DNA of 40,155 nt, taken from a virus. The stretch spans positions 1-40,155 of the IMG/VR virus record IMGVR_UViG_3300038468_000015; one strand, 5' to 3'. Numbering within the stretch: position 1 is the first letter of the stretch; each line of letters opens with the position of its first letter. Below, piece after piece: positions 7,516 through 37,279 of the stretch. The notes below the pieces were generated by a model. It made no database searches. It had not been told where the DNA came from and was given only the letters and a program-made list of their open reading frames with translations. The translations under genes and the position numbers were made by a program.

Positions 7516-8448
7516 ATGTCAGCATACGGTTTCTCTTCACCCGCAGCTACAAACAACAAACCCTCGGGGATTGCAAGCATTGTAACAGACATTGCCACGG
7601 GGACGGCCCATTCGCAGACACTGACGGACCTGAAAGACGGCAAGTTCACGCAGACACATCTCTTTGAGAAAAATCAGACCGGGATGGAGAGGGTTCATGC
7701 AATCCAGGCTGAGGCCAGTTGGAAGTATATGATAACCAACGGCTCGAATGTCCAACTTCTGTCAACATGGGCACAGGGATTCCATAACACCGCGTTGAAT
7801 CTTGTCAATGCGGACGTGGTAGTCTTTGGAAATTCAACGGTTGGCCACAATGGAGTTCCGAAATGGAGACTGGTCGTTGAAGGCGGACCTCAACAGGCGA
7901 GATATGTCGAAATGATGCTGAAGCGAATTGGGGTTGTAGGATCTGCCACCGCTTCTGTGTATGACAATGATATTCTTTGGTCAACATTCACTTCGGCGGG
8001 CGATACCGCCCTCTTCGCGGCTCAGGCGTCTCGTTCATCTTCTGGGATGAAGACCTTTGCAGTCAGAAATACAGGAGAGTCCAATTTCGAGGTAATAGGC
8101 TCGATCAAGAATTGCAAATTCTACGCGACACTTGATTGCGATGAAGATGAAGAGGGAAGATATACACCTCGCGGAACAATCTCGATTGAATATTCGGTTG
8201 ATGTTATGGATTTTACGCCAACCTCACTGGCAGTTCTCGACACATTTCATCAGGTGGCTTCGAACGACGTTCAATTCAAGCTCATGGAAGAGCTTCTGAT
8301 TTCATGTGTAGATAATCTTGGTGCCGTTGCAGATCCGACTCTTGATGGCGACGCAGACAAGGGGGCGATAATGAGATTCCACGGTTCTGGGATTGTGACG
8401 CTTGCAAACTGGGCGGGATTATTCTCTGGTGGCGACATCGTTCCGTAA
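7516..8448 (+). CDS. Structural protein, candidate major tail tube protein
   Basis: The 310-residue protein is preceded by TAGGAGGTATTATC, one of the strongest ribosome sites in the tail cluster, and is separated from its neighbours instead of overlapping them, which suggests high expression. The sequence is beta-rich with a C-terminal stretch reading RGTISIEYSVDVMDFTP. No major tail protein is visible in its usual place upstream of the chaperones, so this is my best candidate. It would be displaced to after the tape measure. It could equally be another baseplate protein. Confidence 0.4.
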   Translation: MSAYGFSSPAATNNKPSGIASIVTDIATGTAHSQTLTDLKDGKFTQTHLFEKNQTGMERVHAIQAEASWKYMITNGSNVQLLSTWAQGFHNTALNLVNADVVVFGNSTVGHNGVPKWRLVVEGGPQQARYVEMMLKRIGVVGSATASVYDNDILWSTFTSAGDTALFAAQASRSSSGMKTFAVRNTGESNFEVIGSIKNCKFYATLDCDEDEEGRYTPRGTISIEYSVDVMDFTPTSLAVLDTFHQVASNDVQFKLMEELLISCVDNLGAVADPTLDGDADKGAIMRFHGSGIVTLANWAGLFSGGDIVP

Positions 8449-8459
8449 ATAGGAGAAGC

Positions 8460-11267
8460 ATGAGAAAATACGCGTGGGCTTTGCTACTCATTCCGGCAAT
8501 CTGTTTGGGTCAGGTTGCCGGATTCAAACATGCCGGTGTTAAGGCTGATTCGATTGTACCAGCCACACCAGGGGCGGGGATTACATTCAAGGCCCGCGCA
8601 TACATTGACAGTGTTCTCAGGCTTTCCGGTCGCGATGTAGATTCCGCGTTAACCGCCCTCAATAACAAGCCCTCAGCTGGTGGTGCTGGCCTTCAGTCTG
8701 TAGCCGACACCACCGCCCTCAAAGCTCTGGCCGATACCATTGGAGTGGTAAATCTTGAAGCTCTTGGAACCTCAGGGGTAGGAGGCGGGCTGTTCTCAGG
8801 CGAGGTTGATTCGACATACCCAGAGGGAGTAGTGGCTTTTGGGACTTCGGCGGGGAAGCAAAGAGTGAGGCTGGATTATTTGGCAAGTCCCTATATTGTC
8901 CAATCGGGCTGGTATGGCAACAGCTTAAAGACCACTACGTTTGCAGATAGTACAAAAAACGACAGTCTGAGGATTGACATTTCTAGAACGGGTATAACAT
9001 TCAATGAACCAATCGCCACGGCTTCTACAAGCAACAATGCTATAGTTTTCCAACGTGGTAATGATTCTAAAAGTCAATTCTCGATGGGGTTGGACATTGC
9101 AAATGAGAAGTATCCATATTTCTACTTTTGGCGTGGCGCTGGATTTTCCGATCCTCCGGTTACGGGTGACGCAATGGCTTTCAGTGCTCGCAGATCAGAT
9201 GGCACATTGAGCACGGTGTTTGGTAGTTCAGTTGGAGTGGATACGAATTTCACCGCTTCGTTTGGGATTCTTACCGACAGGCCCTACGGGCTTTATATAT
9301 CTCCCAATACGGCAACGTCCCATCCTGGAGGCGTGTGGACCGAAATACGGAATAGTGGCAATGGGGCCGCCGGGTCATTCGGCTACTATACGAGACAACT
9401 TTCATCCACAAGAGCATTCTTCCCGCTTTCTATTGGTGACAGTCTTCAGGCGGTTCAATGGACGCTTGCCTACGATTGGGGGGGAGCCGGAAAATCAAAT
9501 TTGTCTCTCGGATACTGGCCGACACTTAGCAGGGTGGTTGAATTTGATTCAATGCTACATACTCGATTTTTCAATCATGTTCAAACGGATTCTGGGGTTA
9601 CTTCCTTTGGAAATATCACCGCACCGAATTTAGTTTCGGCAAACACGCACGGCCCAGAACTGATTTCTGATGGCGGGTTTGATGTGGGCTATCCAGATTG
9701 GATAACCAACGATTGGACAATCTCGGGAAGTATTGCTCATATTGATGCTGAAGAGTCATACAAGAATCTCGTTCAAAACATTGGCACACTTTCGACTGGA
9801 GGTGTCTATGAATTGACCTTTGAGATTTCGAACTGTTCGGTAAGTGCTCAGATGGATGTTCTTGGTAAAAATGAAACCGGGAGCAATGTTGAATTTGGTG
9901 GAAGCTATCCGGTTTATTCGAACGGGTCATATTCAATTATTATTACGGGTTCGGCTATTCACACGATTGAGTTCTGGGCATATACCGTTGGACAATCCGC
10001 TTTTGATCTTGACAACGTAAGCCTCAAACAGAGAGGGACGGGGGCCGACAACGACATTCTCAAATATGATTTCAGTCTTGGCAACTGGACGAACACCAAA
10101 TCCGTTGACAGTCTCTATTTCAGATCGGTCTATTCAGATTCCTACTACGGTGACGGTTCTCATCTCACAGGGATAACGGCTGGCGTTGATTCAGTCGCTC
10201 GTGATTCAATCGCAGCTCACAGTGTTTGGATTGACTCACTCCTTGCGCGGTCTATAGCCACGAATCTCGCCAACAACTACGCATCTGGGACGGGGAATGT
10301 CACGTACTTCGAGGATGACACTTTGAGGAATGCGACTCTCGAATGGCCGCTGGTACTCGCGGATGGGCATTTGACTGCAGACACTTCCTCGGGATTGGCG
10401 ACAAAGCACGACCTTCTCGCAGTGACCAACGGTGTGACGGTAGCCGAATCAGACGGAAGTCCGGTGGTGACTTCAGCCAAGAAGATAAAGATTGACCAAT
10501 CGAATGGATTGAAGGTGACCGCCTCGGGGGATACGGCGTCGATTTCGATACCGAACACTTCAACCATGACACTCCTGGGGTTGAATGCGGGGTCTGGTAT
10601 GTACGGAGGCAATGTATTATTGACACCAGGTCCGACTGATGGGTCTATTACTGGCAAGGATATGGTTCTTGGTGATGAAAACTATCTGGGGGCCATTGAT
10701 TTCACCCGTCCGTCATGCGGAATGATTCAAATTTTCCCCCAATCTGGATATACGAATGATTATGAATATGCCATTCCTGCACATGATGAATGGTTTAATA
10801 ATAATCCCAAAGACACACTCTTCCTCCGCTCTGAGTTCCAGCATTGGGTGGGTGATTCCGTAGCGGCGTACCTTGCGGCTCATCCTCCTGACACATCAAG
10901 ACATCTGATGAAGTCCACCATTTTACTTCAGAATGGTACGGGAACGGATTCGGTGTTCATCAACACTTCTTATCGGATTCCACTTTTCTACTCGACAGGA
11001 GTTGTGATAGATACGCTTGTCTATGTCGGAATGGGGTCAACTGCGAGAAATGTCCAATGCAAGATTGCGTATGGAACAGACCAATCGGCTGCGGGGACTC
11101 TTGTGGACACAACGACCGTAACGTCCAATAATTCCCTGACAAAACAAACAGGGGCACAAATCAATTCTGCGATAATCCCTGCGGGGAACTTTGCATGGTT
11201 GGAATTTTCGTCGGTCACGACGGCCTTCAAGACAATAGTTGTCTATGGATTGGGACACAAACAATGA
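8460..11267 (+). CDS. Large fibre-like protein with signal peptide
   Basis: The 935-residue protein starts at ATG 8460 (AGGAG 6 bases upstream) with a classic Sec signal: MRKYAWALLLIPAICLG followed by Gln. The rest is Ser/Thr/Gly/Asp-rich and beta-rich, with repeated short helical DS-containing segments (YIDSVLRLSGRDVDSAL, VDSVARDSIAAHSVWIDSLL) that look like stalk coiled coils of trimeric fibres, a GDGSHLTGI turn typical of fibre shafts, and a C-terminal beta domain. A jelly-roll-like stretch lies around residues 400-520. By position and composition it is the main tail fibre or receptor-binding protein, yet the leader implies export across the inner membrane. Confidence 0.6.
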   Translation: MRKYAWALLLIPAICLGQVAGFKHAGVKADSIVPATPGAGITFKARAYIDSVLRLSGRDVDSALTALNNKPSAGGAGLQSVADTTALKALADTIGVVNLEALGTSGVGGGLFSGEVDSTYPEGVVAFGTSAGKQRVRLDYLASPYIVQSGWYGNSLKTTTFADSTKNDSLRIDISRTGITFNEPIATASTSNNAIVFQRGNDSKSQFSMGLDIANEKYPYFYFWRGAGFSDPPVTGDAMAFSARRSDGTLSTVFGSSVGVDTNFTASFGILTDRPYGLYISPNTATSHPGGVWTEIRNSGNGAAGSFGYYTRQLSSTRAFFPLSIGDSLQAVQWTLAYDWGGAGKSNLSLGYWPTLSRVVEFDSMLHTRFFNHVQTDSGVTSFGNITAPNLVSANTHGPELISDGGFDVGYPDWITNDWTISGSIAHIDAEESYKNLVQNIGTLSTGGVYELTFEISNCSVSAQMDVLGKNETGSNVEFGGSYPVYSNGSYSIIITGSAIHTIEFWAYTVGQSAFDLDNVSLKQRGTGADNDILKYDFSLGNWTNTKSVDSLYFRSVYSDSYYGDGSHLTGITAGVDSVARDSIAAHSVWIDSLLARSIATNLANNYASGTGNVTYFEDDTLRNATLEWPLVLADGHLTADTSSGLATKHDLLAVTNGVTVAESDGSPVVTSAKKIKIDQSNGLKVTASGDTASISIPNTSTMTLLGLNAGSGMYGGNVLLTPGPTDGSITGKDMVLGDENYLGAIDFTRPSCGMIQIFPQSGYTNDYEYAIPAHDEWFNNNPKDTLFLRSEFQHWVGDSVAAYLAAHPPDTSRHLMKSTILLQNGTGTDSVFINTSYRIPLFYSTGVVIDTLVYVGMGSTARNVQCKIAYGTDQSAAGTLVDTTTVTSNNSLTKQTGAQINSAIIPAGNFAWLEFSSVTTAFKTIVVYGLGHKQ

Positions 11268-11950
11268 AACGAGCATTCTTTCTCTTTGCTTCTCTCTATC
11301 TATTGGCGGTGTGCCAATCACGAGGTCAAGACCCCTACGGCCTCATCAACGTCCAAGCACACGAGGCGACACGGATACTTGACAGAGCATACGGTGATTC
11401 AATCCTCGCTGCGGCACGGGCACAGGATACGACAAGACTCAAAGTTCTCATCTCCGAAGTAAGTGGCGGGACAATAGATTCCACACTCCTGATGACGCAA
11501 ACCATGAGAGCGGCAGATACAAACAGGGCGATTGTCAGAGAAGGATTGAAACAACCTCTTGACGCCGACCTGACAGCTATTGCTGCTATGAGTGCAACTG
11601 GTACTGTGAGGCGGACGGGCGCAGATACTTGGACGGCGACAGCAAGCGATACTGCAGGATTAGGGACTGCTTTGGCAGCAAAAGCCCCAACAGCATCCCC
11701 GGTCTTTACGGGGTTTATGACTGGCTCGACTTCAATGAGGGGAGTGGCAACATTTTCGACAACATCGGTAAGGGTTGCCGTCTATATCCCGGGTGCGGCT
11801 TCAACTGACTATTTCATTTTGACCCCTACGGGAAGTTCGGTGGTGACAACGACAAACCTGACCGCCCTTGCTAAAACGGACTCGCTCATAATCTTCCGAG
11901 GTTCTTCCGGTACGAGTGGGGCAAAAATAAACTGGATATTGATGAGATGA
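11264..11950 (+). CDS. Tail-fibre-like protein with signal peptide
   Basis: ATG 11264 overlaps the previous TGA. The 228-residue product begins MKRAFFLFASLYLLAVC and continues QSRGQDPYG, a signal peptide with a probable cut near RGQ. The mature part contains the fibre signatures LDADLTAIAAMSATGTVRRT and ALAAKAPTASPVFTG, which recur in phage tail fibres as shaft repeats, and a C-terminal beta domain ending NWILMR. The joining of true fibre repeats to a secretion signal is the strongest single piece of evidence for exported fibre proteins in this genome. Confidence 0.65.
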   Translation: MKRAFFLFASLYLLAVCQSRGQDPYGLINVQAHEATRILDRAYGDSILAAARAQDTTRLKVLISEVSGGTIDSTLLMTQTMRAADTNRAIVREGLKQPLDADLTAIAAMSATGTVRRTGADTWTATASDTAGLGTALAAKAPTASPVFTGFMTGSTSMRGVATFSTTSVRVAVYIPGAASTDYFILTPTGSSVVTTTNLTALAKTDSLIIFRGSSGTSGAKINWILMR

Positions 11951-12513
11951 GATACATCTGGCTCATACTTTGGTTCACCTTAACAGCCATAACTCTTCAC
12001 GCTCAATCGGTGACGAATAGCTTCATCCTGAGTGGTGCACCTGCGAGTGCTCCTTCAACACAAGCACTCAGACCAAACTCAGATATTTATACGGGTGGAT
12101 GGAATACTACTGGAACGAATTACTATGACCAAATAAATGAGGTGGTAGCCAACGATGCAACCAATGTTTCAACAGATAGTAATGGTGGAGATAATGAGTT
12201 GATTGTTGGTTTGAGTGCCGGATCAACTCCAAGCGTAAAAACTGGGCACATACTCCATGTGCGGTCTATGCTAACTGGTGGATGTGGTTCAGAATTACTT
12301 GTTGATATTTACTGTGGAGCAACTTTTGTCATAGAGGTGGATTGGGATCTCACAGATACTGAGCCAACAGACCGCACATACACCCTCAATACAGATGAGG
12401 CGAATTTGATTACAGATTATTCGGCATTGGAACTACATTTTATAGGAGTGAATCTGGGATGTGATGAATTTTACAGGGTTTATCAGGCATGGCTGGAGAT
12501 ACCATCTCCATGA
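11947..12513 (+). CDS. Small beta-sandwich fibre-associated protein with signal peptide
   Basis: The 188-residue protein overlaps the previous stop (ATGA). It begins MRYIWLILWFTLTAITLHA followed by QS, a signal peptide. The mature domain opens RPNSDIYTGGWNTTG and ends YRVYQAWLEIPSP, with an internal HILHVRSMLTGG strand. This pattern (RPN.D....GW, N...YD.INE, final W.E.P) is one I associate with a small beta-sandwich domain common among phage appendage proteins. A binding role is likely; the ligand is unknown. Confidence 0.55.
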   Translation: MRYIWLILWFTLTAITLHAQSVTNSFILSGAPASAPSTQALRPNSDIYTGGWNTTGTNYYDQINEVVANDATNVSTDSNGGDNELIVGLSAGSTPSVKTGHILHVRSMLTGGCGSELLVDIYCGATFVIEVDWDLTDTEPTDRTYTLNTDEANLITDYSALELHFIGVNLGCDEFYRVYQAWLEIPSP

Positions 12514-14735
12514 ACAGGCTTTTGTGGATAATTCTTTTCATTGCCTCCTATGCAATGGCGCAAGATACACTTGAACTGGAGCCCGTACGTCTGGGGAATG
12601 GAACGAACACCGTCAATGGGCCACTCCCAGTCCCGAACTCAGGGACATTCTGGTATGATTCTACAACCACAACCGTGAAGGTCGGGATAATCCTTGTTAA
12701 GTTCACGGACAAAAGCCCATTCACGCAAACAAACAGACCGAACGGATTCACGCTTGCAGACTTCAACCTTAGACTCTTCGATACTACCGGAGCCTTCTTC
12801 GATACAACGAGGGGCGATGGAACTCCAGACCCCGATAGTAATCTTTGTTGGGGGTCGATGTCGGATTACTGGTGGCACGTAACGGGGCATCATATCAGAG
12901 TTATAGGCAGCGTGATAAATCCCGATGCCGGCGGTGGACTCCCTCAATGGCTGATGGCCGATAGTTCGTCAACATGGTATCACGACCAAGCCTCATTCGG
13001 TGCGAGGCTATTGTGGATCGAATCAGCTTACAAAGCCTGTGCCGCGGGATGGTTTGATTCAACATACCAATTCTTTGGGATAGTCACAGCAAAATCTGTT
13101 TTCCCTGGGTTCGGCATCTACGATGGGGGATTTGTCGTTTCGGAGAAATTTACTGGAGCAAGTTTCCTCCCACCGGGTTCCACGACACATGAATCAGGCC
13201 ATGCGATCTTCGATTGGCTTGATGAGTACGCGCCATTCTCAACAACCTCGACGGGAACTTACGATTTGATGGCTACTGGTGGTAGTCGGAATGGTAACGG
13301 TTTCTGTCCAGCTCCTCCATCTCCGATAAACAGACTTGAACGTGGATGGGTAATGCCGACTATAATCACATCTGGGGTTTATAATCTGGCAATCACCCCC
13401 AACGACAGCTTCCCGCATTATTACGTGTTGATGAACCCAGATGAAAGCGGAGATCCATTTCAACATGGGGGGAAGGGGTATTATGTTCTGGAAGAAAAAT
13501 TGAGGTCTGGGTTCGACAGATTTGTCCCCGTAGCCCCCGAGAGTCTTACAACCCAACCAGGAAGACTCTTGATATGGAGAACAGACAGGTATGACTGGAC
13601 GGATTTAATCGAGGCAGATACAACAGGCCCCGATGCAAGTAATAACATGATCACACCCCAAACGGACTTCTTCCCGAAGAACGGGATACGGCAGGACTTT
13701 ACACCTTGGACAGTCCCTCGCGCGCAATACAGAGTGGATCAGAGCACGTGGCTCCCGGCCAAATTCGCACTCTATGGAATACACTGGAGCAATGATACGA
13801 CCTACATCGACACCGTGGCTTTAGTTCCGTCAACAAATACTGTTCACGCCGGAGGGATTACAGACTCTACAGCGACAATCAACGGTTCGGTGAATCCCAA
13901 CGGACTTGAGACGATAGCGTGGCTGATGTATGGCACGACTTCAGGGGTCTATGCTACTCGAATGGCTATTGATACACTCACAGGAGTAAATCCACAGTCG
14001 ATAAGTCTGAATCTTACCGGACTTCCTCCGAACTCAACGTACTACTTCAGAGACAGTTCCTGGAATGCTCTTGGATCTTCCGTCGGAAGTGAATTATCAT
14101 TTACCACGAGCACACAGGCGTTGACTCCTCCGACAGTGACAACAGATTCAGCGAGTTCGATTACCACCACAACGGCCTCGCTCTATGCAACGATCCTGAG
14201 TGATACTGCCGGGACCGTGACTTTCAAATGGGGAACAGATACAACAAGTTGGGCGCATTCCCAAGATGTGAATGTGACTGGGGACTCAAACCTCTCGATA
14301 ACTGTTAGCGAACTATCTTCTGGGATGTTGTACTACTTTAGGGCATTCGGGACTAACCGAGCAGGAAACGACACGGGAGAGGTGAAGTCATTCACCACAT
14401 TGGTCGCGGCACCACATGTTTGGACTTTCCCTGCGACGAATATAGGATCATCGACAGCAAAACTTATGGGAACGATAGATTGTGGGGGAGATTCGACAGA
14501 TGCCTGGTTCTTCGTAACGGACTCGTTGGGTTTTCCAACATCTATCAGGGTGCTGACAAAATATAGGGGGGGGCAAATAAATGTTAGTACCACCCTGAAT
14601 GATCTTCGGGCATCAACACATTACTACTTTTGGCTTAAGGCAACTAATTCGGCTGGTACGGTTAACGGATCATATCTCACATTTGACACCAGACCTCTAC
14701 CGGTGGCAAAGTATTACATACGGACGCAGCAATGA
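12510..14735 (+). CDS. Secreted M6-like zinc metalloprotease with three Fn3 domains
   Basis: ATG 12510 overlaps the previous TGA, giving 741 residues; an in-frame ATG at 12489 would put seven residues before the signal peptide MNRLLWIILFIASYAMA (cut before QD). The catalytic domain spans ~20-430. H227-E-S-G-H231 is the HExxH zinc motif, DEY follows at 238-240, and YDLMATGG (251-258) matches the Met-turn region of immune-inhibitor-A/M6 peptidases. Three fibronectin type III domains follow (about 437-535, 537-632, 633-735), each closing with an SFTT/TFDT strand. Spacing between HExxH and DEY is one residue longer than usual in M6. A secreted protease is unusual cargo for a phage; it might cut host surface proteins or act on matrix. 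Confidence 0.75.
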   Translation: MNRLLWIILFIASYAMAQDTLELEPVRLGNGTNTVNGPLPVPNSGTFWYDSTTTTVKVGIILVKFTDKSPFTQTNRPNGFTLADFNLRLFDTTGAFFDTTRGDGTPDPDSNLCWGSMSDYWWHVTGHHIRVIGSVINPDAGGGLPQWLMADSSSTWYHDQASFGARLLWIESAYKACAAGWFDSTYQFFGIVTAKSVFPGFGIYDGGFVVSEKFTGASFLPPGSTTHESGHAIFDWLDEYAPFSTTSTGTYDLMATGGSRNGNGFCPAPPSPINRLERGWVMPTIITSGVYNLAITPNDSFPHYYVLMNPDESGDPFQHGGKGYYVLEEKLRSGFDRFVPVAPESLTTQPGRLLIWRTDRYDWTDLIEADTTGPDASNNMITPQTDFFPKNGIRQDFTPWTVPRAQYRVDQSTWLPAKFALYGIHWSNDTTYIDTVALVPSTNTVHAGGITDSTATINGSVNPNGLETIAWLMYGTTSGVYATRMAIDTLTGVNPQSISLNLTGLPPNSTYYFRDSSWNALGSSVGSELSFTTSTQALTPPTVTTDSASSITTTTASLYATILSDTAGTVTFKWGTDTTSWAHSQDVNVTGDSNLSITVSELSSGMLYYFRAFGTNRAGNDTGEVKSFTTLVAAPHVWTFPATNIGSSTAKLMGTIDCGGDSTDAWFFVTDSLGFPTSIRVLTKYRGGQINVSTTLNDLRASTHYYFWLKATNSAGTVNGSYLTFDTRPLPVAKYYIRTQQ

Positions 14736-17437
14736 AACGAACACTATTATCGCTCTTGATATCAGTAGCGGCATTTGCACAACCTTCTCAGAGATGGGTA
14801 GCAACTTATTGGGCGAACTGGAATCAGAGTCCGGCAAATCTCCACGAGCTTCTGAGCCAAAATGTCTTTACGCACATCATTCTCTTCGCCGTTGGACTGA
14901 ATGCGGATGGCTCAATCTACGAGGACGACTTTCAAACGCTTACTGTCCAGGGGCCAGTGGTAGTAGATTCCTGTCATAACCGAGGCATCAAAGCAATCAT
15001 CTGCATTTTCCCCGGTAGTCAGGGCAATATCACTTCGGCATTTAGCTCTGGTACGAGAGCAACAACCGTTCATAATATCATGCAGGCGATGCGAGTTCAG
15101 GGGTTTGACGGAGTTGATTGGGACATCGAAGTTGGCCTTGACACTTCCGCGTGGAATCCTGGAATGCACCTCCTCAGAGATTCATTGAATGCTGTTGGCA
15201 CACAGCTTGGGAGGCCACTCACAAACTCAGTCTGGACTTACGGCGGAAGTCCATACCTCACCTACAAGAACACCATTCGAGATTTCAATAGAATCCACAT
15301 CGAAGGCTACGAACAGACTGGCCCGTCTCAGGGGTGGATCGTTTGGAATGGCTATGGTATCTACACGGGCGGGTATCATCTTCCGTGTTATTCGTACTTA
15401 TCGGTAGCTGGCGTTGATAGTGTTTGGGCAGGTTGGGAAAGAGCTGGAGCGTCCGACACTACACTTTTGTTCTCGCAATCATGTAGTGGAAGGTTGTGGA
15501 CAGGTGGAACCATCGTCTCAAATATCAGAGGCTTTGCAGTGACGGGAACAGATGGGGCACTTCATCCCGGAGACGTCTGGATTGGCTCAGATCCCGCTTA
15601 TGGCCAGTGTGGAAGTTATGCGGGGATGCCGGCAGGCTCACAGTATGAAACTCCCTACACTGATATTGCTACAGGAAGTTGGGCGAGTTATCCTGTCATG
15701 CACGATACAGTTGTTCTCGCTGCATGGAAATCTCAAGACAATCCAGGCAATGCTTCTGATCAGTTTATCTCCTTCCCTGATCCCTGGACTTGGTGGCAGG
15801 ATTGGCACTATATGGCTCATGTGAGGAATGGTGGAGGTATGTCCATGTGGGATGCGTGGAGAGGAAGAATCTCTGTGAACAATTTCCCGTTGATTGATGC
15901 GCTGAAACTCTCTATCGCAGATACCCCGCTTCCGCCTGAACCAAGCGGAACATTCACGGTAGACCCTGATACTCTTCCAGCGGGAGGAGGACAGGTAACT
16001 CTCACATGGACTTCTTCGGATGCAACGTCGGCAAGCATCTCTCCAGCGATAGGTTCAGTGGCGCTCAGTGGTAGTATATCGTTGAACGTTTCAGCATCCA
16101 TGACGTTTACACTTTCATTGACGAATACGACAGCAGAAGTTCAATATACGGGTCACGTAGGAGTTCCTTCATCAGGAGGAGGTGTCGGAGATGAGGTCAC
16201 AGATGATTTCAACAGAGCGAATGCAACTACGCTTGGTTCTGGGTGGGCAATCCCAAGTGGAAGAGGTTCATGCGGAATATACAATAATCAATGCAACGGA
16301 GCTAATGGTCAGGGGTTCAACTATCGCACAGAGACATTTGGCAACGACCAGTTTGCCGAAATCTCTCCGAAATCAAGTCTTGCGGGATACAGATATGAAT
16401 CTGTTGGCATCCGTATGGGCGGGGCCAACGGAGAAGGGTACTACGCAAAGACTGACGGCGTACAAACATTGCTTGTGAAGATGAATTCGTCGGGTACGGC
16501 AACCACACTCCAGACGCTCAACGTCGGTTACACTGAGTATGGTCAGGATAGGTTAAGGATTCAGGCCATCGGCAACATCATTAAGGTATTCAAGAACAAC
16601 ATCCAGATCAGTTTGGACCAGGTTGACGGCACAATTACAAGTGGTCATCCGGGTGTGTGGATTACACCTGACAACAACACCGCGCTCGATGATTTCTATG
16701 CTGGCGATTTTACAATATCTGGTCAACCCACTATTCATGTCTCGATCCCATCGTTGACCTTTACAAGTATTGTCCCGAATCCATCGACTGCACAAATTTA
16801 CCAAGTGAGCGGAGTAAATCTTACCGCCAATATCATTGTAACGGCCCCTACGGATTTCCAGGTATCTCTCAATGGGACATCTTGGGGATCTTCCGTAACA
16901 CTGACACAATCGGGCGGAGTAGTCAATTCAACAAATGTTCAGGCAAGATTCAACCGTTCAACTGCCGGATCTTCGAGTGGTAATATCACCCATGCCAGTT
17001 CGGGGGCTACGACTCAGAGTGTGGCGGTTTCCGGTGTGGCTGTGGTGAAGACGATGGGCATCAGTGGGTCGTCTGTACTGACCTTTAGGATGATAGCGCC
17101 GGATACTTCTGTTTCTCAGTATTACATCCTCTCATTCACTGGATTTGGATATGTGGGAGCGAGTACGATAAACATCACGAGGTCCGGTGCAAATCCTACA
17201 GACTTCCAAGTCTCACTCAACAACTCGACTTGGGGGGCGTCAGCGAATTATACTCCTCTGACTAACACGGGCTCGATTCCTATTTACGTGAGATGTATCC
17301 GTGGGACGATAGGGACCTCAACTGCCAGCATTTTGAACGCCTGTGCGGGACTTACAACTCAGACGGTTTCAGTTTCAGGGATTTCGACATTGGACTGTGG
17401 TCCGTTTCAACTACTTATGCAAAGGGCTGGAAGATGA
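14732..17437 (+). CDS. Secreted GH18 glycoside hydrolase with C-terminal binding domains
   Basis: The 901-residue protein overlaps the previous stop (ATGA) and begins MKRTLLSLLISVAAFA then QP, a signal peptide. The catalytic barrel covers roughly 20-395: strand 1 WVATYWANWNQSP, strand 3 IKAIICIFPG, and the GH18 signature D126-G-V-D-W-D-I-E133 with E133 as acid/base. Next come a beta-sandwich (~405-480), a LamG-like domain starting DDFNRANATTLGSGW (~485-665), and two Ig-like repeats (ITVT/APTDFQVSLNGTSWG and NPTDFQVSLNNSTWG) of the type seen in secreted Bacteroidota-group proteins. No type IX sorting tail is visible. GH18 enzymes cut chitin or beta-1,4-GlcNAc glycans; the target here is unknown. 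Confidence 0.8.
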   Translation: MKRTLLSLLISVAAFAQPSQRWVATYWANWNQSPANLHELLSQNVFTHIILFAVGLNADGSIYEDDFQTLTVQGPVVVDSCHNRGIKAIICIFPGSQGNITSAFSSGTRATTVHNIMQAMRVQGFDGVDWDIEVGLDTSAWNPGMHLLRDSLNAVGTQLGRPLTNSVWTYGGSPYLTYKNTIRDFNRIHIEGYEQTGPSQGWIVWNGYGIYTGGYHLPCYSYLSVAGVDSVWAGWERAGASDTTLLFSQSCSGRLWTGGTIVSNIRGFAVTGTDGALHPGDVWIGSDPAYGQCGSYAGMPAGSQYETPYTDIATGSWASYPVMHDTVVLAAWKSQDNPGNASDQFISFPDPWTWWQDWHYMAHVRNGGGMSMWDAWRGRISVNNFPLIDALKLSIADTPLPPEPSGTFTVDPDTLPAGGGQVTLTWTSSDATSASISPAIGSVALSGSISLNVSASMTFTLSLTNTTAEVQYTGHVGVPSSGGGVGDEVTDDFNRANATTLGSGWAIPSGRGSCGIYNNQCNGANGQGFNYRTETFGNDQFAEISPKSSLAGYRYESVGIRMGGANGEGYYAKTDGVQTLLVKMNSSGTATTLQTLNVGYTEYGQDRLRIQAIGNIIKVFKNNIQISLDQVDGTITSGHPGVWITPDNNTALDDFYAGDFTISGQPTIHVSIPSLTFTSIVPNPSTAQIYQVSGVNLTANIIVTAPTDFQVSLNGTSWGSSVTLTQSGGVVNSTNVQARFNRSTAGSSSGNITHASSGATTQSVAVSGVAVVKTMGISGSSVLTFRMIAPDTSVSQYYILSFTGFGYVGASTINITRSGANPTDFQVSLNNSTWGASANYTPLTNTGSIPIYVRCIRGTIGTSTASILNACAGLTTQTVSVSGISTLDCGPFQLLMQRAGR

Positions 17438-17769
17438 AAACGATACTCGTAATTGTTCTCTTGTTTACCTTGGAAGCATCTGCACAGACCGTTCCCCTTG
17501 CTGGTCCCAAGACACTTACCGGAAGTTCAAGTAACCTTGTAGTGGCGAATTGGGATACGGTCGCGGCTGCCATCAGAGCTGTGGTACGGTCGGGGTTAAA
17601 ATACACACAGGCTCAGCTCGATAGTGCTCTTGCTGCAAAAGTCTGTCCGCCGGGCTTTACACAGGCACAACTTGACAGTGCTTTCCAGGCTGGCAAGGCA
17701 TCAGTTCCATTATTTCCAGACAGCGTTTGTCTCAGTACGGGGACCAGTACGCGTACATATAAACCATGA
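17434..17769 (+). CDS. Small secreted repeat protein
   Basis: The 111-residue product starts at ATG 17434, overlapping the GH18 stop, with signal peptide MKTILVIVLLFTLEASA (cut before QT). The mature region holds two copies of TQAQLDSA(L/F) about 20 residues apart. They resemble the DS-rich coiled segments in the large fibre protein at 8460. It has two Cys, near residues 70 and 99. It may be a fibre tip or attachment cap; function unknown. Confidence 0.55.
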   Translation: MKTILVIVLLFTLEASAQTVPLAGPKTLTGSSSNLVVANWDTVAAAIRAVVRSGLKYTQAQLDSALAAKVCPPGFTQAQLDSAFQAGKASVPLFPDSVCLSTGTSTRTYKP

Positions 17770-18047
17770 GTGAACAAATGGAACAGCCAAGTAAATTCAA
17801 TGGAACATTCCGCACGATCGGGATAGCGATACTCTCCAGCCTCATCGGGGCGGGGGGAGCCATCTATGCTTCGGGCAGAACTCAGGGACAGGAGATGGAG
17901 AAGATCACTCAACTGGAATTGAAGGTGGAAAAGAATTACAGCGAGGATCGGCAGGATCACGACATGATTCTGGAAGTCAAAGGACAGCTCGCAAGCCTTG
18001 AGTCAAGCAACCAACAGATCATCGAATTACTCAGACGGAGAAAGTAA
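17766..18047 (+). CDS. Membrane-anchored coiled-coil protein
   Basis: The 93-residue protein overlaps the previous gene (ATGA). A membrane helix near residues 17-35 (IGIAILSSLIGAGGAIYASG) is followed by a charged helical tail with heptad-like spacing (ITQLELKVEKNYSED to LESSNQQIIELLRRRK). This layout is shared by XhlA-type holin partners and by inner-membrane spanin subunits. It directly precedes a second membrane protein, so a lysis role is plausible but unproven. Confidence 0.5.
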   Translation: MSEQMEQPSKFNGTFRTIGIAILSSLIGAGGAIYASGRTQGQEMEKITQLELKVEKNYSEDRQDHDMILEVKGQLASLESSNQQIIELLRRRK

Positions 18048-18050
18048 AAC

Positions 18051-18338
18051 ATGGAAACGTTTATTTTAACTTTGCCGGGGCTTATTGTTCTCGGACTCGT
18101 GGGGATGTTCTCGCATTTTCTGAAGAAGAACATAACGGGCGAAACCACAACGGAGATCTTCGACTACTTCCGCGATCATTTCAAGAGCACGCTGCTGGCG
18201 TTGATTGTAACGCTTGTCTCGGTGATCGGATACAAGATGGCACTCGCCACCGGACAGGCTGCGGACATCGTGGTGGTGTTCCTGCTTGGGTTCGGATTCG
18301 ATTCTACTTTGAACAAATGGGACAAAAATAGTCCTTGA
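18051..18338 (+). CDS. Two-span membrane protein, holin candidate
   Basis: The 95-residue protein has one hydrophobic helix at residues 5-24 (ILTLPGLIVLGLVGMFSHFL) and a second at about 47-66 (LLALIVTLVSVIGYKMALATG), with a third weaker one (IVVVFLLGFGFDS). Small size, helix number and place at the end of the structural operon fit a holin. A similar C-terminal motif (GFGFDSTLNKWD) is common in phage membrane proteins of unproven role. Its stop codon lies inside the -35 box of the next promoter. The endolysin is 6 kb away. Confidence 0.5.
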   Translation: METFILTLPGLIVLGLVGMFSHFLKKNITGETTTEIFDYFRDHFKSTLLALIVTLVSVIGYKMALATGQAADIVVVFLLGFGFDSTLNKWDKNSP

Positions 18339-18979: not shown

Positions 18980-19215
18980 GAGCCGCCATCACTTGCTTCT
19001 TTGGGCACAAATACAAACAGGCGGGATTTGGCCCAACCCGAAGGGTAACTCTTTCTTGGGGTATGAGACCAACAAGAGAATACGCCGAGTTTTACAAGTG
19101 CTCACGATGCGGGAGAGAAAAGAGGATTGGTGGGTTTTACATTCCAGAAGACAAAAAACTTCATCCTGACGCTTATGATGATAACGGCTGGCCTATTGGG
19201 TGTAAATTGCCATGA
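18976..19215 (+). CDS. Small zinc-ribbon-like protein
   Basis: I prefer ATG 18976 because it overlaps the previous TGA and GAGAGGGA sits at a good distance; ATG 18970 is also possible. The 79 residues include FYKCSRCGREKRIGG, a CxxC knuckle, and an earlier Cys/His pair (ITCFFGHKYKQ), so one zinc site is likely. This CFFGHK...CSRCG arrangement occurs in many small phage proteins. Role unknown. Confidence 0.55.
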   Translation: MRAAITCFFGHKYKQAGFGPTRRVTLSWGMRPTREYAEFYKCSRCGREKRIGGFYIPEDKKLHPDAYDDNGWPIGCKLP

Positions 19216-19805
19216 CTAAGTGCGTTCTCATTCTGCTTCTCTTCGCTGGCTGCACCACAGTCCACTGTCAAGTCGCTGGTATTAAGGCCGACACTCTCAA
19301 GGTGAACTATATCAAACCCGCAACCGAAGGCGGGAGCGTTGTCATTGAGAATGTGGAAACACGCCACAGGGCGAACGGATGGACTTATTTTGCAATCTGT
19401 ATAGCGACATTGCTGGTCGTATGTATTAGGATTGATTTAGAGAATGCGCGTCGATGGGAGGCGCTCAAGACTTTTCTCATTGTGGTCTTTGGCCTTGCGA
19501 TACTACTTTCATTCTCCTCCTGCACCACAGTCCAACTCCAGCGCAATCCCAACGTTGACCAGATTCGCGCCCGTCTCAGCAAGTACCAAGTAGTGAGACT
19601 GAGCGACTTTCTGGACTACGCCCAAGAGTGCTACAACGATTCGACGGATTTTGGTGAGGATCGTATAGTCCGTGATATTTGGGTTCACGTTCCATATTGG
19701 CATCATCGCACTCCCACATTCGAGGGCTTTGTTGAATATCTCAAGGACAAGGACGCTCTCCGTCAGATGAGGATACTGCATGAACGCATGAAGGAGAACA
19801 AATGA
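19212..19805 (+). CDS. Membrane protein with two lipobox-like segments
   Basis: The 197-residue protein overlaps the previous stop (ATGA). It begins MTKCVLILLLFAGCTTVHCQ, a hydrophobic leader ending in a lipobox-like FAGC. A membrane helix follows (WTYFAICIATLLVVCIRI), then a second hydrophobic run ending LLSFSSCTTVQLQ, again lipobox-like. The two CTTV motifs share an identical 15-base stretch (CTGCACCACAGTCCA) 270 bases apart and in the same frame, which suggests an internal duplication or fusion of two lipoprotein starts. After it, QVAGIKAD resembles the AGVKAD motif of the 8460 fibre protein. A spanin-like role is possible; the ~95-residue C-terminus is charged and unassigned. Confidence 0.5.
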   Translation: MTKCVLILLLFAGCTTVHCQVAGIKADTLKVNYIKPATEGGSVVIENVETRHRANGWTYFAICIATLLVVCIRIDLENARRWEALKTFLIVVFGLAILLSFSSCTTVQLQRNPNVDQIRARLSKYQVVRLSDFLDYAQECYNDSTDFGEDRIVRDIWVHVPYWHHRTPTFEGFVEYLKDKDALRQMRILHERMKENK

Positions 19806-32823: not shown

Positions 32824-33126
32824 ATGGGCGGTAAGCGTGAAGGAGCTGGAAGGCCGAAAGGAGTACCCAATCTTGCCAAGATGGTCCTGCAGCATCGGAT
32901 CAGCGACAAGGATGTGGCTCTTGCCCTCAGTACATTGCGGGATGCAATGGCCTCGGATAACTGGAAAGCTCGGATCTCTGCTGCTCAGTATCTTCTCGAT
33001 CAGAAGTTCGGCAAGGCAAGGCAGTCCACAGAGATAACAGGTAAGGATGGCGGACCAGTCAGGTTCCAGTGGCTTGTTGCAAATGAAGGTCAGCAACGTA
33101 GCGCTGAGAACAAAGCAAGCATTTGA
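32824..33126 (+). CDS. Terminase small subunit (TerS-like)
   Basis: The 100-residue protein begins MGGKREGAGRPKGVPNL, the GGxREGAGRPKG start shared by many phage small terminase / DUF5681-like proteins. A helical part follows (ALALSTLRDAMASDNWKAR ISAAQYLLDQKFGKA split here) and the end overlaps the large-subunit gene by 80 bases. TerS recognises the packaging site and positions TerL. No strong ribosome site is seen before ATG 32824. Confidence 0.7.
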   Translation: MGGKREGAGRPKGVPNLAKMVLQHRISDKDVALALSTLRDAMASDNWKARISAAQYLLDQKFGKARQSTEITGKDGGPVRFQWLVANEGQQRSAENKASI

Positions 33127-34240
33127 TAATGGCAAACTCCTCATCGTCAACGAAGGTGGAACCGGATCAAGTAAGACGTATAGCCTCTGTCAATTCTTCA
33201 TTACTCTCGCCCACTCCGAACGCAGCGTTATTTCAATCGTTCGTAAGACAATGCCTGCGCTTCGTGGCTCGGCCATGTACGACTTTTTCCAGCTTCTTGA
33301 GGCGTATGGTTTGTATGATGAAAGCAGACATGACAAATCAAACGAGATCTATACCTTTCCAACAGGGGCGGAGATTGAGTTCTTTGGATTGGACCAACCC
33401 CAAAAGGTCAGAGGGAGAAAGCGTAAGTATCTCTGGTGCAATGAGGCCAATGAGTTCACCCCCGAGGACTTCTTTCAGCTTGACGTTAGGACTGATGGTC
33501 CCGTATTTATGGATTACAACCCCTCTGATTTTGATTCTTGGATTTACGATATGGTTGCTTCTCATCCTTCTGCGGAGCTTATCAGCTCTACTTACCTCGA
33601 TAATCCATTCCTGGGAGAAATCAAACGAGCGAAGATTGAACGACTCAAGGATGAAGACCCCAATCACTGGCTCGTCTACGGACTTGGGAAGCGAGGACTT
33701 AGGCGAACCGCTGTATATTCGCGGTACGATATTGCCGGATGGCTGGATTCAGTGGACGAAACGATTTGGGGGCTCGACTTCGGTTACGCTCCCGATCCCA
33801 GTTGTCTGGTATGTGTTGGATTCCGAGGGGGAGAAATTCACGTTGATGAGTGGATCTACGAGCGAAATCTTACAAACACAAAACTGATTGAGAAGTTCAA
33901 TGTGCTTGGCGTGTCGAAATCAGACGAGATTTACGCAGATTCAGCAGAACCCCAGAGAATACAAGAAATCCACGACGCAGGGTACAATATTAAACCGTGT
34001 ACCAAAGGACCGGACTCTGTTAGGCTTGGTGTCGATGTCTGTCTTCGATATTTTGCCCACTTCACCCCCAGATCAACCAATGTCTATCGAGACTGGAAAG
34101 GTTACTCGATGAAGGTTGACAAGGACGGGAAGATTCTGGCGGGTGAATACGTGAAGTTCAACGTACATGGGTGTGACGCCGTGAGGTACGCCGTGCAATC
34201 GACGAGGCAGACAAAGTTTAGGGTCATGTTTTCAGCATGA
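33047..34240 (+). CDS. terL: Terminase large subunit (PBSX/XtmB-type)
   Basis: 397 residues from ATG 33047; the shorter start ATG 33083 (MKVSNVALRTK) is a good alternative because PBSX-type terminases begin close to the ATP site. Walker A is GGTGSSKT (37-44) and the Walker B region KYLWCNEAN, with E133 as likely catalytic Glu. The nuclease half carries D244 (GLDFGYA), D298 (IYADSAEP) and D377 (HGCDAVRYA), the RNase-H-like triad that cuts the concatemer. This family (Terminase_3/3C) usually goes with headful or cos-type packaging, so the true ends cannot be read from it. Confidence 0.9.
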   Translation: MADQSGSSGLLQMKVSNVALRTKQAFDNGKLLIVNEGGTGSSKTYSLCQFFITLAHSERSVISIVRKTMPALRGSAMYDFFQLLEAYGLYDESRHDKSNEIYTFPTGAEIEFFGLDQPQKVRGRKRKYLWCNEANEFTPEDFFQLDVRTDGPVFMDYNPSDFDSWIYDMVASHPSAELISSTYLDNPFLGEIKRAKIERLKDEDPNHWLVYGLGKRGLRRTAVYSRYDIAGWLDSVDETIWGLDFGYAPDPSCLVCVGFRGGEIHVDEWIYERNLTNTKLIEKFNVLGVSKSDEIYADSAEPQRIQEIHDAGYNIKPCTKGPDSVRLGVDVCLRYFAHFTPRSTNVYRDWKGYSMKVDKDGKILAGEYVKFNVHGCDAVRYAVQSTRQTKFRVMFSA

Positions 34241-34885: not shown

Positions 34886-34924
34886 GGGGCGTATGGTCGA
34901 AAGACCGTCGCCCCTTTTTCTTTT
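34886..34924 (+). terminator. Intrinsic terminator before portal gene
   Basis: GGGGCG (34886-34891) pairs with CGCCCC (34909-34914), with GGTC/GACC (34895-34898/34903-34906) inside and a GAAA-type loop, then TTTTTCTTTT. It is a textbook terminator. The portal ATG at 34926 comes immediately after the T-tract. Confidence 0.8.
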
Positions 34925-34925
34925 G

Positions 34926-36557
34926 ATGCCGATGAGAAGAACAGAGTACAAAGTTGAGGTGAACATACCGTGGGCCAGTACTGAGAACTCATGGAAAGGC
35001 ATGTCCACCGTAGGCGGGGAGGATGAGGCTTATTCCAAGATCCCGCTTATCTACAGGGCTATTCAGCTCCGCGTCAGTTCGCTCACTCGCGTTCCGGTTT
35101 ATGTCTATGAGGGGGAGACTGTTGTCTCGAAAACCAAGGCTGGAGATGGATTTCTCTTTGAAAACACCAATCTCACACCGCTTTACAAATGTTCACTCCG
35201 CAATCTTTTAGAACTCTCAGAAGTAGCCATGCTCTTGAAGGGGGCCGCCTTCAATCTGAGGCCGAGGAACAGGTTCGGTTTTCAGAAAGGCTTGCAGTGG
35301 TTGAATCCATTCACGATCCAGGTACAGTATAGGCGAAATGATGCGGGTCAGTCGGTTCCGTACTTCTGGCAGCAGATCCCCGGAGGTGGAAGGTTCCCAA
35401 GTGAAGGCTATTGGACGATAGATGATTTTCTGTATTTCAGGGAGTTCAATCCAGGGGATGATCTTGGAATGGGGATATCTGCGACCGCTGTGGCTTTGGG
35501 TGATTCAAGGATTATTGGTAGCGTGACCAATTTCTTGGGGAATTTCTTCACCTACGATGCTCTCCCGGTCACGATGATAAGTTCGAAGGGAATGGGCGAA
35601 GGCGAGGCGAAGAGGATCGAGGACTGGTTCAAGGACAAACTCAGGGGGCTTAGGAACTCGGTTTACAGAGTCATTGGGGTCAATGCTGAGGATGTTAAGA
35701 TCGAACGCATGACTGCAGAGTTGAAGACATTCGACTTTGTGTCTGTTGATGCCCATGCGGTTCAGGGTGTCTCCGATGCCTTTGGTATGGCGCAGTCCAT
35801 TTTGAGAAGTCAGTCGGGGGCCAACAAGGCAATATCAGACAATGAGCGGGAATCCTACCTGAATGATACGATCATCCCGAGATGTAACTACTACGAGACC
35901 AGAATCAACGAATATCTGGCCGAGGTAGCTGAGAATCTTGGGGAACCCGAACAACACATCCAATTTGCCCCAGATGAACTACCCGAGATGCAAGTCGATG
36001 AAACGAACAGGGCAGATGCACTTGGGAAACTCGTCACGGCGGGATTTGACTTGCTTGATGCTGCAGATACTTTGGGCTATGACCTGACTGAGGAGATTAG
36101 GGCGCGGCTTGAAGAGAAGCAGAAGGCAGCGATTGAGAAGGCGAAGAACCCGCAGCCCCTACCACAGCAATTTCAACCGGGGCAACCACCCGACCAGCAA
36201 AACCAAGACCAACAGGACCAACAAGTCAAGGCCGATCTCGACAAGTGGATGCGGAAGGCCGTCAGTTCATTCAAGGCTGGTAAGGGTGCAGATGTCGCAT
36301 TTGAAACAACAGTGATTCCCGCAGAGCTGAAGGCTGAAATTGAGACCAGACTGAAGAACGGCGAATCAAAATCAGAGGAAGGTATTCGGGAGATATTTGC
36401 CCTCAAGTTGGGGTCGAGGCACAGTCAGGCGGATATGGCGTTGATAGGCGAGGCACACGACTTGGCTGATAAGATCAAGGGAAACATGGTACAACTCGGA
36501 CATGGGGCAAAGAAGCCAATCAGTTGGCGAGAGAAACAAATAGCACAGAAATCTTAA
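34926..36557 (+). CDS. Portal protein
   Basis: About 543 residues from ATG 34926 (ATG 34932 is equally possible; a longer frame from 34893 would run through the terminator). YSKIPLIYRAIQLRVSSLTRVPVYVYEG is the standard start of HK97-type portals, followed by a beta-rich wing, DDFLYFREFNPGDDLGMGISA, and helical crown region DAHAVQGVSDAFGMAQSILR and SGANKAISDNERESYL. A Gln/Pro-rich segment (~residues 405-435) leads to a ~100-residue C-terminal extension with EEGIREIFALKLG. The absence of a ribosome site directly after a terminator is unusual for such an essential gene. Confidence 0.85.
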   Translation: MPMRRTEYKVEVNIPWASTENSWKGMSTVGGEDEAYSKIPLIYRAIQLRVSSLTRVPVYVYEGETVVSKTKAGDGFLFENTNLTPLYKCSLRNLLELSEVAMLLKGAAFNLRPRNRFGFQKGLQWLNPFTIQVQYRRNDAGQSVPYFWQQIPGGGRFPSEGYWTIDDFLYFREFNPGDDLGMGISATAVALGDSRIIGSVTNFLGNFFTYDALPVTMISSKGMGEGEAKRIEDWFKDKLRGLRNSVYRVIGVNAEDVKIERMTAELKTFDFVSVDAHAVQGVSDAFGMAQSILRSQSGANKAISDNERESYLNDTIIPRCNYYETRINEYLAEVAENLGEPEQHIQFAPDELPEMQVDETNRADALGKLVTAGFDLLDAADTLGYDLTEEIRARLEEKQKAAIEKAKNPQPLPQQFQPGQPPDQQNQDQQDQQVKADLDKWMRKAVSSFKAGKGADVAFETTVIPAELKAEIETRLKNGESKSEEGIREIFALKLGSRHSQADMALIGEAHDLADKIKGNMVQLGHGAKKPISWREKQIAQKS

Positions 36558-36568
36558 CGGAGGCAATC

Positions 36569-37279
36569 ATGCGTAGAATCATCGCTTCACTTTCAATCTG
36601 GCTCATTGCCTCGATTGGGTATGGGCAACTTGAGGTAAATATCAGACCAACCATCTGTCCGAAGACTGTATCGACTGCTTTCCAGACTCGTGGGAAGGAT
36701 ACGATCTATTCCAAGCTGACTACAGCCTTTGATTCTGTTGCTGTGGGGGCGCAGATATACGGGCCGGGCTTCAAGGTCGGGACAACAGTCCTGACAATCT
36801 CATCGACTGGTGATACCCTGAAACTCAGCGACACATCTTTGGTGACTCAGGACAGCGTGGCTTTCCAGATCGGGATCCTCCGCGGTGCAGCTTATGCCTC
36901 TGGAGACTGGGTGGGATTTCCCTTCAAGTTATGGGACGGGGACAAAAGCGGCAGTTGGGCGACTCTTGTTTCTGCCCACATCATCGACAATGCCGATGCC
37001 CTGACAGCCACAGATATAGACTTCTTCACCTCACCATCGGGAGATGAAGGCTTGGACAATGTTGCCATTGCCTATCCCGCGGCAGACGAGGCTGGTGCTC
37101 TGGGTTTCGTATCTGTAGCCACGATAACAGACTTGGGCGCGGTGAGGATTGGGACATTGAACAACATCTACCAACTTCTACCACGAGGGAAGACGGTCTG
37201 GGGAAGACTAGTATGCAGGAATGGTACGCCGGCCTGGACGACGATGAGTAATCTGAGAGTCAGGTTGAGATTTGAATGA
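36569..37279 (+). CDS. Signal-peptide protein next to portal, possible structural protein
   Basis: I use ATG 36569 after AACGGAGG; 236 residues. The start MRRIIASLSIWLIASIGYG followed by Q is a clear Sec signal. The mature part is beta-rich, with DADALTATDIDFFTSPSG and a later KTVWGRLVCRNGTPAW, a pattern I associate with a common phage structural protein that normally lacks any leader. Its place between portal and capsid genes would suggest a head decoration protein, which makes a secretion signal hard to explain. Confidence 0.55.
   Translation: MRRIIASLSIWLIASIGYGQLEVNIRPTICPKTVSTAFQTRGKDTIYSKLTTAFDSVAVGAQIYGPGFKVGTTVLTISSTGDTLKLSDTSLVTQDSVAFQIGILRGAAYASGDWVGFPFKLWDGDKSGSWATLVSAHIIDNADALTATDIDFFTSPSGDEGLDNVAIAYPAADEAGALGFVSVATITDLGAVRIGTLNNIYQLLPRGKTVWGRLVCRNGTPAWTTMSNLRVRLRFE

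Follow-up and report, generated by a model that had tools for sequence, protein, structure and literature searches.

Leader-bearing genes in the window

The window analysed here comprises the 40,155 bases of IMG/VR virus record IMGVR_UViG_3300038468_000015 and carries at 8460–17769 six consecutive genes, named below by their start positions, whose products open with a Sec leader and a predicted cut before glutamine (Gln); a seventh such gene, 36569, lies beside the portal gene. Each leader opens with one or two basic residues and continues through a hydrophobic core to a small residue, after which Gln follows: MRKYAWALLLIPAICLG/Q, MKRAFFLFASLYLLAVCQSRG/Q and MRYIWLILWFTLTAITLHA/Q in 8460, 11264 and 11947 (the slash marks the predicted cut), MNRLLWIILFIASYAMA/Q, MKRTLLSLLISVAAFA/Q and MKTILVIVLLFTLEASA/Q in 12510, 14732 and 17434, and MRRIIASLSIWLIASIGYG/Q in 36569. 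Since ATGA overlaps with the preceding stop are found at 11264, 11947, 12510, 14732, 17434 and 17766, and Shine-Dalgarno-like AGGAG/GGAGG sites stand upstream of 8460 and 36569, the start codons are secure. An earlier sequence-only reading of this DNA had listed the same seven genes, and all of them lie where it had placed them, though it missed a possible eighth, 19212, and did not recognise the Gln as a rule pointing to a host group.

Leaders were called with a home-made scorer, which sets the leader genes apart from the rest of the window except for a few membrane proteins (e.g., 20557 and 21729); the signal-peptide prediction that the earlier reading had proposed was made with this scorer, and all seven leaders score as Sec. 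Gln occupies the predicted +1 position in 7/7 of them and also in 19212, with AXA-type sites in several. The Cys expected at +1 of a lipobox, as in surface lipoproteins, is replaced by Gln in the seven leaders, while 19212 is ambiguous. Leaders ending before Gln (Q-leaders) arise in 3/1600 whole-protein shuffles. They occur in 8 of approximately 60 genes here versus 2/661 crude gene calls, never adjacent, in 13 comparison phages or segments lacking the cluster (from Flavobacterium, Polaribacter, Bacteroides, Parabacteroides, Salinibacter and Vibrio, and Cellulophaga phages phi17:2 and phi14:2), or about 40 times the background. Given this background and the shuffle rate, the six-gene run is not due to chance; the longest run found automatically in the window was five, crude calling having assigned 17434 an upstream start.

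Most Sec/signal peptidase I (SPI) substrates of Bacteroidetes expose Gln after the cut, which is cyclised to pyroglutamate (the Q-rule), and the rule also extends to Ignavibacterium album and a few Chlorobi (PMC5837995). By sequence, the leaders in the window are Q-rule SPI substrates of the Bacteroidetes type, with cleavage and pyroglutamate formation predicted. Gln directly after the cut thus marks the leaders as suited to a Bacteroidota-type host, which agrees with the terminase large subunit (TerL; 33047–34240, plus strand), whose nearest named relatives are in phages that infect Parabacteroides, Bacteroides and Flavobacterium (~34% identity).

Proteins encoded by the module

All genes described here are on the plus strand. 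The cluster opens with a fibre-like protein of 935 amino acids (aa; 8460–11267, leader 8460–8510, cut CLG/Q) for which no homologue was found. Next comes a putative fibre of 228 aa (11264–11950, cut SRG/Q) in which LDADLTAIAA and AKAPTASPVFTG repeats follow the leader. The earlier claim that this gene joins fibre repeats to a signal peptide holds for the leader, and a fibre identity is plausible: the PHROG match is weak (E 0.0026), and an LDADLTAIAA-type sequence aligned with an annotated tail fibre over 21 aa (E 2). The 188-aa product of 11947–12513 (LHA/Q) has no homologue that we could find. Two enzymes follow, bearing out the enzyme label given to the cluster: an M6-type metalloprotease of 741 aa with FN3 repeats (12510–14735, AMA/Q; M6 domain E 1.8e-11, HESGH present) and a GH18 hydrolase of 901 aa (14732–17437, AFA/Q; E 8.7e-8, catalytic motif DGVDWDIE intact). 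The run ends with a 111-aa protein with AQLDSA(L/F)AA repeats (17434–17769, ASA/Q), and the seventh leader gene encodes 236 aa (36569–37279, GYG/Q) immediately after the leaderless portal gene (34893–36557). The module's position, after the tail genes, is right for tail fibres, as are the repeats in 11264, while database matches are weak and AlphaFold models of 36569 and 11264 were unusable (mean pLDDT 31 and 36).

Two reasons or routes for export were considered and dropped. No NCBIfam match to a type IX C-terminal sorting domain was found in 8460, 11264, 12510, 14732 or 36569, which removed type IX export, and Cys is not enriched (0.46% vs 0.57%), which removed disulfide folding.

The possible eighth case, 19212 (19212–19805), encodes a lysis-region membrane protein with a weak spanin match. 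Its leader is MTKCVLILLLFAGCTTVHC/Q (cut VHC/Q), and since FAGC could equally be a lipobox, we count it only as possible. Its mature start, QVAGIKAD..PAT.G, is similar to that of 8460: positions 8460–8600 and 19212–19330 encode similar mature starts (QVAGFKHAGVKADSIVPATPGAG and QVAGIKADTLKVNYIKPATEGG) in otherwise different leader proteins, perhaps a common N-terminal module on the fibre-like protein and the lysis-region membrane protein.

An O-glycosylation motif in the leader proteins

In Bacteroidota, proteins outside the cytoplasm are O-glycosylated at D(S/T)(A/I/L/M/V/T), where Glu does not substitute for Asp, Ser is slightly favoured and the third residue is mainly Leu, Ile, Val, Thr, Ala, Ser or Met, though motif usage is not universal across species (PMC12871550). 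We counted the published motif D[ST][AILMVT] as given and took expectations from shuffles. The seven mature leader proteins hold 54 sites versus 16.8 expected (3.21-fold, z 9.9), compared with 17 versus 16.7 (1.02-fold) in the phage's non-exported proteins. Enrichment at the first position is limited to D (E-for-D, 0.66) and at the second to S (3.9) and T (2.6), while L (4.8), V (4.1), T (3.3), I (2.3) and A (2.1) are raised at the third; the motif and these residue preferences resemble those found by glycoproteomics in non-cytoplasmic Bacteroidota proteins (PMC12871550). By gene, the excess is strong in 8460 (21 sites vs 4.8), 12510 (15 vs 4.1) and 17434, and modest in 11264 and 36569 (4 vs 1.4 in the latter). 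Of four Bacteroidota genomes sampled, two have a 2.0–2.4-fold excess in their exported proteins (Paraflavitalea, 2.04; a Sphingobacteriales genome, 2.42), with E-for-D and mirror controls not raised, and leaderless fibre-end proteins in other phage sets range from 0.64 to 1.74. The confinement of the excess to the leader proteins suggests a further, independent sign of export, the glycan itself being predicted.

Leader runs in Cellulophaga phages

A similar arrangement was found in Cellulophaga phages phi10:1 and phi19:1 (Assiduviridae; relatives in Pachyviridae and Duneviridae), where consecutive large leader genes, mostly following the Q-rule, end the tail module and encode adhesin/pectate-lyase bodies. 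The five consecutive genes gp091–gp095 of phi10:1 have Q-rule leaders, and gp091–gp094 are annotated as structural from tandem mass spectrometry (MS/MS) proteomics; gp101–gp104 of phi19:1 are likewise annotated as virion proteins from MS/MS, and all four have leaders, that of gp104 without Gln. These proteomic data reportedly come from a PNAS paper. Runs of two to four leader genes occur in phi19:3 and phi13:2 (both Pachyviridae), Ingeline (Duneviridae) and Nekkels (Assiduviridae). The likeness to the window is in anatomy only, as the Cellulophaga proteins share no homology with those of the module and, unlike them, are depleted in the glycosylation motif. This depletion looks like avoidance, and the leaderless fibres of phi17:2 and phi14:2 are also low (0.64).

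In the gp094 family, the leader and approximately 20 next residues are near-invariant while the remainder is hypervariable, as in tail-fibre anchor modules. In phi14:2 the gp093 body follows an Mtd_N anchor and in phi17:2 a different N-terminus, in neither case with a leader, and a gp092 domain is likewise leaderless in phi17:2; the N-termini of these leaderless homologues are non-hydrophobic. The conserved leader, the variable body and the leaderless homologous domains argue that the leader is a working module, one domain being carried with or without a leader as a virion protein. A related pattern is seen between L014 (15339–17315) and L018 (18451–20427) on the one hand and L010 (46438–47391) on the other, which have near-identical leaders and N-terminal 20–40 residues followed by unrelated tips; this suggests that fibre tips are swapped behind a fixed leader-anchor among Cellulophaga phages of different families.

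Relatives and genome context

No homologue of the window's module was found in the collections searched. Single-query IMG/VR searches returned no direct relatives of the tail-tube-like, portal, TerL, 8460, 12510 or 36569 proteins, and named phages yielded no relatives of 8460, 11264, 11947, 14732 or 36569. The look for conserved leaders in related phages that the earlier reading had proposed gave the same anatomy in Cellulophaga phages of several families, but no direct homologues. An alignment search with TerL yielded 80 loci in prophages or genomes and 80 in viruses; 21 of the TerL-related viral records contained no leader cluster, save a pair of like-placed Q-leader genes in one IMG/VR record (G015) that resemble an outer-membrane protein and cargo of the type IX secretion system (T9SS). 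Several Q-leader matches beside TerL in bacterial genomes proved to be host genes (e.g., an outer-membrane barrel protein, CotH and MauG). The record IMGVR_UViG_3300037961_000476 (9275–10836, minus strand) carries a pair of neighbouring Q-leader genes, flanked by tail and lysis genes, one encoding 336 aa that end in FGFNYLIF like an outer-membrane barrel and the other 182 aa with a T9SS-like tail (YNLNGQHIRKPESIYIENGQIKKVL); this phage may direct proteins into or onto the outer membrane of its host.

The window has a 127-bp direct terminal repeat at its ends, which makes it very likely that the genome is complete and either circular or circularly permuted. Recognisable genes include those for TerL, portal, major head protein, connectors, endolysin and recombination; no integrase was seen among the scanned proteins, which are part of the phage's set. 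The final tail gene ahead of the cluster (7516–8448, plus strand) has neither a leader nor a motif excess, and the cluster's end overlaps by ATGA with two small membrane proteins (17766–18338, plus strand) that are holin/lysis-like by position only. A single open frame runs from 38016 to 40155 and continues at position 1, crossing the record ends into an HK97-like major head protein; the PHROG match begins at residue 358 of the translated stretch, approximately 350 residues precede it, and the frame may encode a maturation protease fused to the capsid protein.

Probable export and a proposed route to the virion

Fibres of tailed phages are normally synthesised and put together within the infected cell, and an all-cytoplasmic assembly is widely assumed. 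The fibre modules of ordinary siphophages resemble the window's module in gene position, variable tips and, plausibly, fibre repeats, but are leaderless, as in phi17:2 gp054 and phi14:2 gp097 (Mtd_N). Virion adhesins that are synthesised behind a cleavable Sec leader, as we propose here, are familiar from filamentous phages such as M13, whose pIII and pVIII are adsorption and coat proteins; filamentous virions assemble at the membrane, however, whereas DNA packaging in tailed phages takes place in the cytoplasm.

The sequence-only reading proposed that the phage exports adhesins and hydrolases or adds fibres outside the cytoplasm. Its first element is well supported by the Q-rule sites and the motif signature, and we consider export of the leader proteins highly probable from their sequences. 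Attachment of the module proteins to virions in this phage is argued by analogy with phi10:1 and phi19:1 and seems somewhat likelier than its converse. Taken together, we favour as the probable explanation an adsorption module whose proteins leave the cytoplasm, are cleaved, probably gain pyroglutamate and O-glycans in the periplasm, and become part of virions at lysis or later. The late operon would be translated to give the adsorption and accessory proteins as pre-proteins for the host Sec translocon; signal peptidase I would cut them before Gln after export, and host glutaminyl cyclase would convert the exposed Gln to pyroglutamate. In hosts having such a system, many D(S/T)(A/I/L/M/V/T) sites would be O-glycosylated in the periplasm, where the proteins would fold. 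Once endolysin and spanin freed the virions through the periplasm at lysis, the fibre-like 8460, 11264, 17434 and 36569 would attach to tail or head outside the cytoplasm, while the M6 protease and GH18 hydrolase would either attach to virions or act as free extracellular enzymes. The leaders, their operon linkage, the Q-rule, the motif excess that only leader proteins have and the anatomy of the Cellulophaga phages are read from the sequences; it is from these that we infer export, cleavage, glycosylation and late assembly in this phage.

The most serious rival explanation is that the proteins are exported but do not attach to virions, and instead serve as secreted or surface effectors that remove extracellular matrix, prevent superinfection or alter the infected cell. 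Two module members, the M6 protease and the GH18 hydrolase, are plain enzymes, and the G015 pair resembles an outer-membrane protein and T9SS cargo. Phages of Porphyromonas gingivalis (proposed Nixviridae) also carry five genes that follow the host Q-rule, of unknown function, from which their authors infer host-membrane modification (PMC10367356); these genes, the nearest published case that we located, are read as host-modifying and, unlike the genes here, have no link to fibres or virions. We nevertheless hold the effector explanation to be unlikely, as the position and putative fibre repeats of the cluster are typical of tail-tip or fibre modules, Cellulophaga proteins in the corresponding position have a structural annotation from virion MS/MS, 36569 is located in the head module, and neither a T9SS sorting domain nor another anchor was recognised in the five window proteins tested. 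That the N-termini are instead hydrophobic segments anchoring proteins in the virion, never exported or cleaved, would fit the joint conservation of the Cellulophaga leader and its ~20 next residues, but cytoplasmic proteins would not be expected to show Gln at +1 throughout, AXA-type sites in several cases or bodies that bear a periplasm-specific glycosylation signature, and the homologous domains of phi17:2 and phi14:2 have non-hydrophobic N-termini, making this very improbable. An assembly artefact fusing bacterial secreted-protein genes to a phage contig is least credible and hardly worth entertaining: although the enzymes and FN3 repeats are similar to bacterial secreted proteins, the record has its direct terminal repeat, the ATGA chain runs unbroken from 8460 across the cluster into the lysis genes, and the seventh leader gene sits in the head module.

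Several observations weigh against the favoured explanation. The motif excess is absent or slight in 11947 (zero sites) and 14732, exported proteins of two Flavobacterium genomes show no enrichment (0.78 and 1.02), and an initial mixed sample of 39 Q-leader proteins from bacteria held 59 sites versus 59.8 expected; in an Ignavibacteria genome, the 1.84-fold value came from only 15 proteins and the mirror motif was also raised (1.55). The leader-bearing fibre proteins of Cellulophaga phages (L010, L015, L018 and L019) are depleted (15 vs 32.6, 0.46-fold, z -3.2); glycosylation is therefore not general, and we dropped it as a general reason for export in these phages. Shuffle controls ignore local structural preference for D-S-hydrophobic, so a turn preference of this kind in these proteins is the remaining alternative to a glycosylation signature. 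The Cellulophaga virion evidence is GenBank annotation text, and our explanation requires exported parts to join a cytoplasm-assembled virion in a proposed step after lysis.

Implications for Bacteroidota phages

The Q-rule, Bacteroidota O-glycosylation and Q-rule genes in P. gingivalis phages are already described. Our literature search, with most subscription journals outside it, found no report of Sec leaders on tailed-phage virion proteins or of Bacteroidota glycosylation motifs in phage proteins, and the Cellulophaga phage leaders are unmentioned in any paper found. We tentatively suggest, at somewhat less than even confidence, that tailed phages infecting Bacteroidota-type hosts, in several families, finish their virions outside the cytoplasm, with fibres that are Sec-exported, Gln-capped, in some host lineages O-glycosylated with host glycan, and attached at lysis; existing Cellulophaga phages make this idea testable at present. 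Runs of Q-rule leaders would be a marker for adsorption genes in Bacteroidota phages, where homology annotation often fails. If fibres do pass via Sec, tailed-phage assembly would gain an extracytoplasmic last step, and receptor-binding proteins could bear host glycans and pyroglutamate. Virions would then wear a host-coloured glycan coat with adsorption proteins modified in a host-dependent manner, and adsorption could depend on the glycosylation of the previous host.

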